Positions 1 through 29,754 of a stretch of 29,754 nucleotides of DNA are shown here, piece after piece. The stretch is taken from the IMG/VR virus record IMGVR_UViG_3300033571_003572, positions 1-29,754 of that record. The stretch is one strand, 5' to 3'. The DNA is from a virus. The notes under the pieces were generated by a model. It was not told the origin of the DNA. It saw nothing but the letters and a program-made list of their open reading frames with translations, and did no database searches. A program made the translations under genes and the position numbers. The stretch's first letter is position 1; each line of letters starts with the position of its first letter.

Positions 1-87
1 CGCGGCCATTGATTGGATAACACACCATTTTTTAGTTTTGACAAAACAGGACGTAAAAGCAAAGTTAACCCCAACGCAATTTTGGGA
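1..87. repeat. terminal direct repeat (circular-contig overlap)
   Basis: Bases 1-87 are identical to 29668-29754. The repeat lies inside a helicase gene that reads in frame across the join, so it has no function of its own as coding sequence. An exact overlap of this size is typical of an assembler closing a circular graph at one k-mer length. A true short terminal repeat on packaged DNA is less likely, because the ends would fall inside an essential gene. Confidence 0.95.
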
Positions 88-643
88 CATGGCCGTTAAA
101 ATCAAAAACGATTCGGGACTTGAAACGGCGTCGATTGATTCATGGAAAGACCTTTCACACCCTTACAACGATTACGGGGGTTATGCGCAATACTTGGAAT
201 ACGTTTTACCGTACCGAAATGCGATTGCTGAAAACAACGATTTACATTTACATACGATTATACACCCGAAATTAACGGAAAAAGAAAACGGAAAACGTAA
301 ACCGCCCGTCCCGTACGATTTGAAAGGGGGTTCGGAATGGTTTAACAGCGGTAAATGTATGATAACAATCGACCGACCTAATTTTGAAACGAACGAGGTC
401 GATGTATATTTCAACAAAATAAAACCCCGTTCGATTGGTAACATTGGACAAATTACAATGAGGTACGACATACAGGCTGGACGTTATTACGAATCGAGCG
501 AATTGGGTGGCATTGAACGACGAACGTACGCGAGTGAAAAACCCCAAGAAATAACGACACAAAATTTGTATGGTGGCGTAACTTTACGCGATCAGTTTAC
601 GAACAAAGAATTTGAAGGACCAACGGACGATTGCCCATTTTAA
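1..643 (+). CDS. Twinkle/DnaB-type replicative DNA helicase, C-terminal part (continued from 29309)
   Basis: The open frame enters from the window edge (reading frame begins at base 2) and ends with TAA at 641-643. It is the continuation of the ORF that starts at 29309, and residue numbers below are for the joined 333-residue protein. IDSWKDL near residue 166 fits the Walker B region, and IIHPKL near 208 fits the sensor His of RecA-fold helicases. KGGSEWFNSGKCMITI followed by NKIKPRSIGNIGQ corresponds to the conserved C-terminal strand and arginine-finger region of Twinkle-like helicases. A TTG at 38 could be mistaken for a start, but the upstream sequence stays open and conserved, so it is internal. 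The gene leads directly into the recombination cluster. Confidence 0.85.
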   Translation, partial: AAIDWITHHFLVLTKQDVKAKLTPTQFWDMAVKIKNDSGLETASIDSWKDLSHPYNDYGGYAQYLEYVLPYRNAIAENNDLHLHTIIHPKLTEKENGKRKPPVPYDLKGGSEWFNSGKCMITIDRPNFETNEVDVYFNKIKPRSIGNIGQITMRYDIQAGRYYESSELGGIERRTYASEKPQEITTQNLYGGVTLRDQFTNKEFEGPTDDCPF

Positions 644-27956: not shown

Positions 27957-28100
27957 ATGAAAACAAAACAAAACATCAAACAGCCACAACGTCCAGCGGT
28001 GGCGCATGGTGTAACCCATGCTGATCGTAAAAAATGGTGGACCAATTACAACGCCTCATTAGTTAACCGAATTTCCGAAATCAAAAAATCGCAATCATGA
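27957..28100 (+). CDS. small basic protein (47 aa)
   Basis: ATG 27957 to TGA 28098-28100 encodes 47 residues starting MKTKQNIKQPQRPAVAHG, followed by ADRKKWWTNYNASLVNRISE. The stop overlaps the start of the DnaA-like gene (ATGA), so the two are probably coupled. The AAAACATC leader motif is found inside the first codons (27970-27977). It is basic and could contact DNA or the DnaA-like protein. Confidence 0.6.
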   Translation: MKTKQNIKQPQRPAVAHGVTHADRKKWWTNYNASLVNRISEIKKSQS

Positions 28101-28486
28101 ACCCAAACGAAAATTTAGTGTCCGTCGATTTCATGTCAAACGTTTACGAGCTCATCGAAAAACATAACCTAAAACGAAAGGACCGTCGCCGGGCAACGAT
28201 TTACAAACGTTATTACCTTTACTCGAAACTTTACGACGCGCGGTTGTCATTGTCCCACATTGGCGTTTTATTCAATAAGGACCATGCTACCGTAATTCAC
28301 GGCCTGAAAATGCATAAACTTTACATGTCGCAAAACGACCAAGTTTATAAACATTACATTCAACCGATAATAAACGAATTACAGTTTACACCTGAACCGC
28401 GCGATTTGAAACGCGAAATAATGGAATGTAATTCACTTGACGAATTATTTATTATCAAACGTAACATTGAACGAAATTTGTATTAA
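28097..28486 (+). CDS. DnaA domain IV-like DNA-binding protein
   Basis: The 129-residue protein contains the diagnostic DnaA box-binding helix-turn-helix: LSLSHIGVLFNKDHATVIHGL at 50-70 with the DHATV signature, preceded by a helix rich in Tyr/Arg (RRATIYKRYYLYSKLYDA). DnaA itself has about 450 residues with an AAA+ ATPase, which is absent here. The protein probably binds DnaA-box-like sites, either to start phage replication or to interfere with host initiation. It lies directly upstream of the replication-organiser and helicase genes. Confidence 0.8.
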   Translation: MNPNENLVSVDFMSNVYELIEKHNLKRKDRRRATIYKRYYLYSKLYDARLSLSHIGVLFNKDHATVIHGLKMHKLYMSQNDQVYKHYIQPIINELQFTPEPRDLKREIMECNSLDELFIIKRNIERNLY

Positions 28487-28499
28487 ATTCGTCCTGTTC

Positions 28500-28579
28500 G
28501 CTTCCACATTATAGAACATTGGCATTATTGCCCCTTTATTTGATTTGCGACGTGGAAGCCGCGAGGATAATGGAGGGGC
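28500..28579 (+). ncRNA. interleaved inverted repeats, possible H-type pseudoknot leader
   Basis: GCTTCCAC (28500-28507) is the exact complement of GTGGAAGC (28552-28559), and GCCCCTTT (28530-28537) pairs with GGAGGGGC (28572-28579) with two G-U pairs. The pairs interlock in the order 1-2-1'-2', the topology of an H-type pseudoknot. The second stem is directly followed by eight T. It lies in the 118-base gap upstream of the replication-organiser gene and contains no ORF. It may be an attenuator or a sensing RNA. Confidence 0.55.
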
Positions 28580-28587
28580 TTTTTTTT
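28530..28587 (+). terminator. intrinsic terminator/attenuator upstream of the replication genes
   Basis: The stem GCCCCTTT/GGAGGGGC (loop of 34 bases) is followed by eight T (28580-28587). Genes downstream have no obvious promoter of their own, so readthrough seems necessary for their expression. The long loop is unusual and holds one arm of the other inverted repeat. Confidence 0.65.
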
Positions 28588-28604
28588 GCTTAAATAATTA
28601 CAAA

Positions 28605-29324
28605 ATGGCTGTAAACAAAAAATCATTTTTACTTTACGTCGACCTGATCCACACGGTCGAAAAATTACCCGACGATTACGCTGGTAAACTGTTCAAACAT
28701 TTGTTACAATACGTTAACGACATGAACCCCGAAACGGACGACATTGTTATTAACGTGGCATTTGAACCGATTAAACAATCGTTAAAACGCGATTTGGTAC
28801 GTTGGGACGAAACGAGGGAAAAACGTTCGAGGGCTGGTAAAATGAGCGCGGAAAAACGCAACAAAAACGAACATAATGAACACATGTTAACACATGTTGA
28901 ATTTGTTGAACAAAAACAAACAAGCGTTAACACACCTCAACAAGCGCCAACAAATTCAACTGATAATGTAAATGTTAATGTAAGTGTAATAAATAATAAT
29001 AATACTGTCGATGTCGAAAACATCGACTTTGATTCCCTGTTGAATTTGATTAACGACACATTCAAACGATCATTTCGAACAATAAACCAAAAGAACCGCC
29101 AGGCGTTTAATGCTCGAATGAAACAAGGCTACAAAAAAACGGACATTCAAACCGCAATAAAAAATTGTTCGACAAACGATTACCACATCGAAACAAATTT
29201 CCGATATTGCACCCCTGAATTTTTTTCCCGTGCCGATGTTTTGGATAAGTATTCGAACGTAACGATTGTGAAAAAAGAAAATGAACCTAAAAACGCCGCA
29301 AACGTGCCATGCTGGAATCGATAA
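28605..29324 (+). CDS. replication organiser/initiator (Phg_2220_C-like C-terminus)
   Basis: ATG 28605 gives 239 residues; an in-frame start at 28545 would cross the terminator. The N-terminal domain (MAVNKKSFLLYVDLIHTVEK, then DDYAGKLFKHLLQYVND) matches the DUF6291-like pattern of phage replication proteins. A Asn/Gln/Thr-rich linker (about 95-140) follows. The C-terminal domain (FDSLLNLINDTFKRSFRTIN, then KQGYKKTDIQTAIKNC and YCTPEFFSRADVLDKY) resembles the conserved phage C-terminal domain Phg_2220_C. It probably binds the origin and loads the helicase encoded by the next, overlapping gene. Confidence 0.78.
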   Translation: MAVNKKSFLLYVDLIHTVEKLPDDYAGKLFKHLLQYVNDMNPETDDIVINVAFEPIKQSLKRDLVRWDETREKRSRAGKMSAEKRNKNEHNEHMLTHVEFVEQKQTSVNTPQQAPTNSTDNVNVNVSVINNNNTVDVENIDFDSLLNLINDTFKRSFRTINQKNRQAFNARMKQGYKKTDIQTAIKNCSTNDYHIETNFRYCTPEFFSRADVLDKYSNVTIVKKENEPKNAANVPCWNR

Positions 29325-29754
29325 AAGGATTTAAGATAACGACCGCCTCGGACGTACTTAACAAATTGAAAAATTACCGTACAAATTACCATGATCGCGG
29401 TAAATACCTCGGATTTCCGGCCGTCGACCGACATTATACCATGCAATTAGGTAACGTTACGGATTGGACGGGTTACCCAATAAGCGGTAAAACACAGTTT
29501 TTAATGGAAATGTTAATTAACACGTCCGTAATGCACGGTTGGCGCCATTTAATTTATTTCCCCGACGTTGGTTCAAACGTGGAAATTATCGCGGACCTAA
29601 TCCACAAAAAAACGGGTAAAACTTTTGATCCAAAAGCAACAAACCACATTACCGAAACGGAAATTTACGCGGCCATTGATTGGATAACACACCATTTTTT
29701 AGTTTTGACAAAACAGGACGTAAAAGCAAAGTTAACCCCAACGCAATTTTGGGA
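29309..29754 (+). CDS. Twinkle/DnaB-type replicative DNA helicase, N-terminal part (continues at base 1)
   Basis: The gene starts at ATG 29309, overlapping the end of the replication-organiser gene (stop 29322-29324), and is cut by the window end. Joined through the 87-base repeat to bases 2-643 it encodes 333 residues. Residues 55-62 (GYPISGKT) are a Walker A motif for NTP binding, preceded by a short N-terminal region with no primase or Toprim domain. The order (Walker A, then an acidic motif in IDSW, then a His motif in IIHP, then NKIKP) matches the helicase half of Twinkle/T7 gp4-like proteins. It should unwind the phage replication fork as a ring-shaped hexamer. Because the primase half is absent, priming probably depends on the host or on another phage protein. 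Confidence 0.85.
   Translation, partial: MLESIKGFKITTASDVLNKLKNYRTNYHDRGKYLGFPAVDRHYTMQLGNVTDWTGYPISGKTQFLMEMLINTSVMHGWRHLIYFPDVGSNVEIIADLIHKKTGKTFDPKATNHITETEIYAAIDWITHHFLVLTKQDVKAKLTPTQFW
29668..29754. repeat. terminal direct repeat, second copy
   Basis: This is the exact second copy of bases 1-87. Removing one copy gives a circle of about 29,667 bp in which the helicase gene is intact. Confidence 0.95.

Follow-up and report, generated by a model that had tools for sequence, protein, structure and literature searches.

The locus examined here raises the question of whether two 8-base inverted repeats, which interlock just ahead of a set of phage replication genes and of which the second runs into eight T, belong to an RNA structure, and what such a structure would do to the genes behind it. 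The window, that is, the whole stretch of 29,754 nt that was analysed (IMG/VR record IMGVR_UViG_3300033571_003572), is a complete-looking phage record and probably circular: positions 1-87 are repeated exactly and in the same direction at 29668-29754, an 87-bp terminal repeat that probably reflects a phage genome that is circular or has terminal redundancy. The gene for a protein with a DnaA C-terminal DNA-binding domain (DnaA-C) is followed by the RNA element, the initiator gene and an ATPase gene that spans the record ends at the terminal-repeat junction; the initiator ATG at 28605 lies 17 nt beyond the end of the U-tract (Table 1). The preliminary description had located the repeats ahead of replication initiator and helicase genes, in agreement with the initiator and ATPase found downstream.

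A lone repeat of this size is unremarkable. The whole window contains 71 exact 8-bp inverted repeats within 60 nt, against 70.7 expected, and 7.2% of dinucleotide shuffles of positions 28480-28600 hold an exact 8-bp repeat. An interleaved 8+7 pair occurs in 0.25% of these shuffles, a figure that refers to a region picked after the fact, and the minimum free energy of the element region has a z-score of -2.18. Since the lone repeat is unremarkable and the region was chosen post hoc, the test of significance has to be comparative. An adjoining exact 8-bp repeat (GACGAATT at 28439-28446 and AATTCGTC at 28486-28493) is not conserved, being absent, as judged by eye, from the closest relatives, L002 and L004, and it therefore serves as an internal negative control.

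Relatives were collected by a protein search with the ATPase, which fetched 80 related viral contigs without using the RNA element for selection; BLAST of the leader revealed homology in many of them. Two pattern scans, based on the 5' hairpin only, gave 32 and 114 stretches, some in shared records. A covariance model (R1) was built from ten sequences with the stems H1, P2 and P3 paired and the kissing arms left unpaired. R1 detects the element at 57 of the 80 ATPase loci as well as in the window (E-values from 3e-19 to 4.5e-7), a count in which some of the ten building sequences match by construction because they come from the same contigs; all its matches in this set lie on the coding strand, and nearly all pattern-scan loci are matched as well. 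Among the 67 ATPase loci for which 1 kb or more of upstream sequence is available, 56 are detected by R1 and two more, diverged, by a structure-only descriptor (a kiss of at least 7 bp, the second arm inside a terminator hairpin, and T5), and in the roughly nine relatives that match neither, the element may be dispensable. Eight loci (L047, L048, L049, L053, L061, L064, L071 and L078) show neither a detectable element nor a TAnnTTTG box plus T-run upstream of the ATPase. The design recurs in more than 100 relatives with co-ordinated, helix-preserving sequence changes; judging from relatedness and promoter type, the hosts of these relatives are probably Flavobacteriales.

Other search routes returned little. 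A DUF6291 protein search of IMG/VR yielded no relatives, an exact-sequence search with the window's own apical region yielded nothing, and an RNA BLAST against named phages and plasmids produced chance-like matches or none. A scan of bacterial genome contigs with a 5-N pattern, which covers the bulged sub-type only, gave four matches in unrelated bacteria, and these are taken as chance because none has a second hairpin. At positions 2875-2955 of one relative (L143) a matching 5' hairpin stands without a kissing terminator, as either a broken copy or a chance match.

The predicted element can be divided into a 5' hairpin, H1, a linker, and a terminator hairpin in which the inner 6-bp stem P3 tops a TGA/GAT internal loop above the stem P2. 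Both interlocked pairings reported earlier agree with the sequence and are kept as helices in relatives; in the second, GCCCCTTT (28530-28537) pairs with GGAGGGGC (28572-28579) through two G-U pairs among others. The stem proposed to run into eight T as a terminator is longer than had been claimed, with 11 bp in P2 followed directly by U8, and this P2/P3 hairpin with its U-tract, the latter present in nearly all relatives, corresponds in sequence to an intrinsic terminator. The H-type pseudoknot topology first suggested for the locus has to be replaced: arm A sits in the loop of its own covarying hairpin, and since H1 and the inner stem present both arms, the arrangement is one of kissing hairpins, with two complementary hairpin loops retained by covariation. 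The predicted stems and kiss are mutually compatible and coexist within one compact fold.

Table 1. Features at the locus (positions in the window) and looser copies of the element in isolated phages (positions in each isolate genome).
Feature	Position	Strand	Basis or remark
Whole RNA element, predicted transcript of ~92-94 nt	28494..28587	+	Covariance model R1, 62.9 bits, E 3.4e-10; model R2, 73.2 bits, with the window itself among the building sequences of R2
Degenerate -7 box TAAATTCG (family consensus TAnnTTTG)	28484..28491	+	Aligned position of relatives' box
H1 5' arm TGTTC	28495..28499	+	Pairs with 28514-28518; both-side changes at 5/5 pairs in relatives
Kissing arm A GCTTCCAC, in H1 loop	28500..28507	+	Exact reverse complement of 28552-28559
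H1 loop, conserved 3' side ATTATA	28508..28513	+	A3 columns 20-25: A.91, T.79, T.86, A 1.0, T.95, A.93
H1 3' arm GAACA	28514..28518	+	Fold and covariation in relatives
Linker, family consensus AAAGRAATTATTR	28519..28529	+	A3 column frequencies
P2 5' arm, terminator hairpin	28530..28540	+	Fold; 8/10 modelled P2 pairs change on both sides in relatives
Internal loop strand TGA	28541..28543	+	Opposite GAT 28566-28568; conserved T.86, G.86, A 1.0
P3 5' arm TTTGCG	28544..28549	+	Fold; 4/4 modelled P3 pairs covary
Kissing arm B GTGGAAGC, apical loop of terminator hairpin	28552..28559	+	Complement of arm A
P3 3' arm CGCGAG	28560..28565	+	Fold and covariation in relatives
P2 3' arm, terminator hairpin	28569..28579	+	Fold and covariation in relatives
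Intrinsic-terminator U-tract TTTTTTTT	28580..28587	+	T at columns 111-115 in 88-100% of relatives
DnaA C-terminal DNA-binding domain protein	28097..28486	+	PF08299 E 1.3e-6, just below Pfam cut-off; adjoins RNA element upstream
DUF6291 / O-like replication initiator	28605..29324	+	PF19808 E 6e-22; PHROG replication initiation O-like, weak
Replication-module ATPase	29309..29752, continuing at 2-643	+	PHROG 5482 and primase/helicase PHROGs
F. columnare phage VK58	35887		Descriptor
Flavobacterium phage tooticki6-1	11608, 12646		Descriptor
Olleya phage Harreka_1	30092		Descriptor
Cellulophaga phage phi19:3	+23527, -4093		Descriptor (only parts scanned)
Cellulophaga phage phi13:2	-3172		Descriptor (only parts scanned)
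Flavobacterium phage 11b	33643		Descriptor

Outside the helices, the family alignment A3 conserves the ATTATA of the H1 loop, an A-rich linker ending in ATTATT, a TGA(A)/GGA(T) internal loop and an apical loop made of A-R and the 8-nt arm. The TGA/GAT internal loop possibly forms tandem G.A, non-canonical pairs. Two other candidate structures were discarded: a twister-like ribozyme, with a misfitting topology and no Rfam match, and an anti-terminator mini-hairpin, GGCA-TTAT-TGCC at 28521-28532, which belongs to the W clade only and is not general.

Covariation was measured on 43 distinct sequences from the ATPase set, which was not selected for the RNA. In H1, P2 and P3, 99.3% of cells are paired and 17 of 19 pairs show double changes, counts that lean towards the model because the alignment was fitted to these three stems. 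Their covariation score is 0.876, compared with 0.225 for shuffled sequences and at most 0.12 when partners are slid, and sliding by 1-3 columns lowers the paired fraction to 36-55%. H1 alone varies from GGTTC/GAACC to GTAC, GCATT/AATGC, GGCTT/AAGCC, GTTAC/GTAAC and others. The kissing helix, unpaired in the search model and so free of that bias, reaches 99.1% pairing, and 6 of its 8 pairs show double changes; it has 99 double-change cells against 32.5 in shuffles, and its score of 0.723 compares with 0.212 after shuffling and no more than 0.116 after sliding, which leaves 29-42% paired. The number of kissing pairs with change and the number of pair types show no excess over shuffles, because few columns vary and these vary together, and it is the score and the cell counts that exceed them. 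In the pattern-derived set, conservation of the 5' part is partly imposed, as a portion of the 5' hairpin was required. All four predicted helices (H1, P2, P3 and the kiss) covary. Covariation analysis had been proposed at the outset as a check, with uncompensated drift of the stems counting against the structure, and 98-100% of cells turn out to be paired in every helix. The interlocked pairing is not a product of chance, the same predicted helices being kept with compensatory changes in most relatives.

The joint conservation of the helices bears on how such a leader might work. The preliminary description offered kinetic competition between two stems as a way of setting read-through into the initiator and helicase genes, and pointed to riboswitches as a frequent identity of such leaders. 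A probable role in setting read-through stands, while the competition proposed as its means does not: H1, the kiss, P3 and P2 are compatible and conserved together, and no anti-terminator pairing is conserved. Leader position ahead of a terminator and interlocked helices would suit a ligand-responsive riboswitch or a switch between mutually exclusive stems, a reading that we regard as very improbable with all helices compatible and conserved, no anti-terminator pairing, and downstream DNA-replication genes that share no metabolite. The suggested comparison with Rfam points the same way, since no family was at or above its gathering threshold for the window and eight relatives, and the weak matches, inspected by eye, reflect generic terminator similarity only.

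A promoter box accompanies the element. TAnnTTTG starts 11-13 nt upstream of the first model base in 35 of the 43 distinct sequences (99 of 133 overall) and is found almost nowhere else within 60 nt upstream. In flavobacteria the sigmaA -7 box spans -12 to -5 relative to +1 (PMC9723704), so this spacing would place +1 at or next to the first H1 base, and a Bacteroidota box of sigmaA type is thus recognized in these 35 relatives. The -33 TTG element of Bacteroidota promoters has no preferred spacing and is not conserved among the relatives. In the window, L002 and L004, TAAATT[CA]G takes the place of TAnnTTTG, and with this degenerate box the predicted promoter of the present phage is the weaker one by consensus.

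The fold, its covariation, its position and the conserved promoter box are read from the sequences, whereas termination in the cell, attenuation, and the part of any factor or of any trans action by the released RNA are inferred. We consider it probable that the element represents an undescribed RNA family of about 92 nt that serves as a promoter-proximal attenuator of replication genes in phages of (probably) Flavobacteriales. RNA polymerase would start on the first base of H1, or beside it, and transcribe H1, the linker and then the intrinsic terminator hairpin (P2, the small internal loop and P3), and the H1 loop and the terminator apical loop would form an 8-bp kissing helix. Most transcripts would end there and be released as a short RNA of ~92 nt, with the initiator/ATPase operon expressed only by read-through, so that the attenuator would set the dose and timing of the replication genes. 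Read-through would most likely be controlled by a factor able to recognise the kissing fold or disrupt it. The uniform terminator architecture with its U-tract across relatives counts in favour of the attenuator. Counted against it are the unconserved -33 element, the degenerate -7 box of the window, the lack among relatives of a conserved anti-terminator pairing that could explain read-through switching, and the relatives without a covariance model match (11 of 67, two of them diverged by descriptor).

The genomic context was compared over 168 loci. A DnaA-C protein cluster is the most frequent immediate upstream gene (87/168), and in most loci the initiator cluster takes the first or second place downstream, with the ATPase and NinG next. 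With other replication modules, in which a primase-helicase, an SNF2-like helicase or a ParB-like gene comes first, the RNA still lies just before the first gene. The distance from the U-tract to the next ATG is usually 10-25 nt, and that to the start codon with which the replication module opens is usually 13-25 nt, a gap short enough to leave no room for another promoter, and the first downstream gene would therefore depend on read-through, whichever promoter upstream is used. Five contigs (L187, L191, L197, L201 and L224) carry two full copies each, one before each operon segment, and L156 has one good copy and two weak ones; copies within one contig bear different kissing words. In L156, positions 433-497 and 2586-2668 hold degenerate copies, with the kiss shortened or missing, near the normal one.

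This context also bears on the idea of a free-standing sRNA gene, comprising promoter, stable kissing-loop RNA of ~92 nt and terminator, whose product would be trans-acting, with a protein or some host or phage target as its partner, and whose position ahead of replication genes would be incidental. Such a gene would have its own -7 box at the right spacing (PMC9723704), a complete terminator and a compact fold typical of stable RNA, as observed here; the downstream genes vary, HNH, ParB-like and small ORFs being included, and the gap to the next gene could merely mirror a compact genome. However, the element keeps a tight link to the heads of replication modules despite their very different gene contents, the missing promoter room means that the terminator would affect the downstream operon regardless, and the loop sequences, which are the most exposed to a target, are the least conserved part. 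We therefore regard the free-standing gene as rather unlikely.

A small ORF of 50-70 aa comes first after the RNA in 59 of the 168 loci. Several of its clusters look distantly related by profile comparison, being beta-rich with a C-terminal helix, ...KEELxxLIxxL..., and its product is possibly a partner protein of the RNA.

Several known systems resemble the proposed attenuator in part. At lambda pR' a terminator stands close behind the promoter and 6S RNA is released until Q antitermination, in front of the late genes. Here too a promoter is soon followed by a terminator, which would give a short RNA until read-through into phage genes; the element, in contrast, heads replication genes, whereas lambda control involves the Q protein and late genes, and no covarying kissing fold is known for lambda 6S RNA. 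The put RNAs of HK022 are two-hairpin structures located right after phage promoters that act on the elongation complex and suppress downstream terminators; the present element likewise has two hairpins directly behind a promoter but, unlike put, itself ends in a terminator. In ColE1, RNAI and RNAII form a sense-antisense loop-loop kiss through hypervariable complementary loops beside replication control. Variable yet complementary loops near replication control are shared with our element, in which, unlike ColE1, a single strand carries both loops and there is no sign of an antisense transcript.

In phage P4, the CI RNA and the seqA-seqC leader control replication genes by termination versus read-through and contain complementary RNA segments; the CI RNA is a processing product, and its pairing acts in trans or between leader segments (PMC4825925). 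IsrK of Gifsy-1 is a short terminated RNA made from the same promoter as a read-through mRNA (PMC4825925). Like both, the element would be a short, untranslated phage operon-leader RNA with complementary segments, and leader complementarity ahead of replication genes gives it a layout of the P4 CI type; the resemblance is in layout only, no sequence relation to P4 CI RNA or IsrK was found, and, unlike P4, two hairpin loops of one RNA pair here, one of them the terminator loop. A literature search, which proves little as most subscription journals lie outside its scope, found no description of the element. It is thus best described as a candidate phage attenuator or leader RNA with a kissing-loop terminator that belongs to no Rfam family. 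The RNA structure is widespread, strongly supported and missing from the Rfam copy searched, and it stands where phage DNA replication is controlled in a group of bacteria for which little is known about how phage genes are regulated. It is unusual for a terminator loop to be coupled to an upstream hairpin in this way, at fixed stability while the sequence changes fast.

The kissing words change quickly. Among 22 distinct 8-nt words, 21 contain 4-5 G-C, and the predicted pairing energy has a standard deviation of 1.2 kcal/mol, compared with 2.8 for random words of the same composition; this narrow spread implies that pairing strength is held while the word sequence changes. Of phage pairs with 95-99% ATPase identity, 27% have the word in common and 73% differ in it, and the RNAs of the near-identical contigs L083 and L084 differ in nothing but the two arms and one bulged base. 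Median RNA identity is 0.70-0.80 where ATPase DNA has 0.90-0.97 and DnaA-C 0.84-0.91. The initiator is as diverged as the RNA or more, and the two have been exchanged independently among relatives. The initiator gene appears as a mosaic hot spot, as low as 60% identical between phages with 97% identical ATPase DNA. This pattern of divergence fits the diversification of a specificity determinant and also a mosaic replication region.

Fast word change at near-constant stability suggests pairing specificity, perhaps in trans. In that case the kissing arm of a released RNA would pair with a nascent leader sharing its word and promote termination, which would give the replication operon copy control or immunity to superinfection, as with P4 CI RNA or antisense-controlled plasmids. 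The 73% of closely related pairs that differ in word, an RNA more diverged than its DnaA-C and ATPase flanks and exchanged independently of the initiator, the change of identity at near-constant stability, the difference between L083 and L084, and the different words on copies within one contig are all in agreement with such self-recognition. Nevertheless, intramolecular pairing accounts for all the pairing seen, a cis fold present several times in a genome would call for orthogonal words in any case, and short structured segments outpace coding sequence in divergence, with the initiator diverging as much as the RNA; we thus regard recognition in trans as quite improbable. If true, the words would be recognition codes that diversify under selection at fixed pairing strength, and flavobacterial phages would possess an RNA-only copy control and superinfection immunity with many specificities.

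Returning to the proposed attenuator, isolated phages of Flavobacterium, Olleya and Cellulophaga carry looser versions of the predicted element. Across six isolate genomes the descriptor detects eight copies linked to a promoter box, TAnnTTTG lying 17-22 nt upstream of their first arm, as against zero in 1.92 Mb of shuffled sequence; it finds no copy in phage 6H or in the CRP19 stretch, and in the phi19:3 and phi13:2 elements before the initiator the H1 stem is not detected. Considering that these phages are cultured, the element is directly testable, including the question of whether loop pairing sets termination in cis or recognises kin in trans. In VK58, tooticki and L027/L029 the kissing loop types appear, by eye, swapped between the hairpins relative to the main family, with the purine arm in H1 and the pyrimidine arm in the terminator loop, which suggests that the kissing module matters more than the hairpin that carries each arm.
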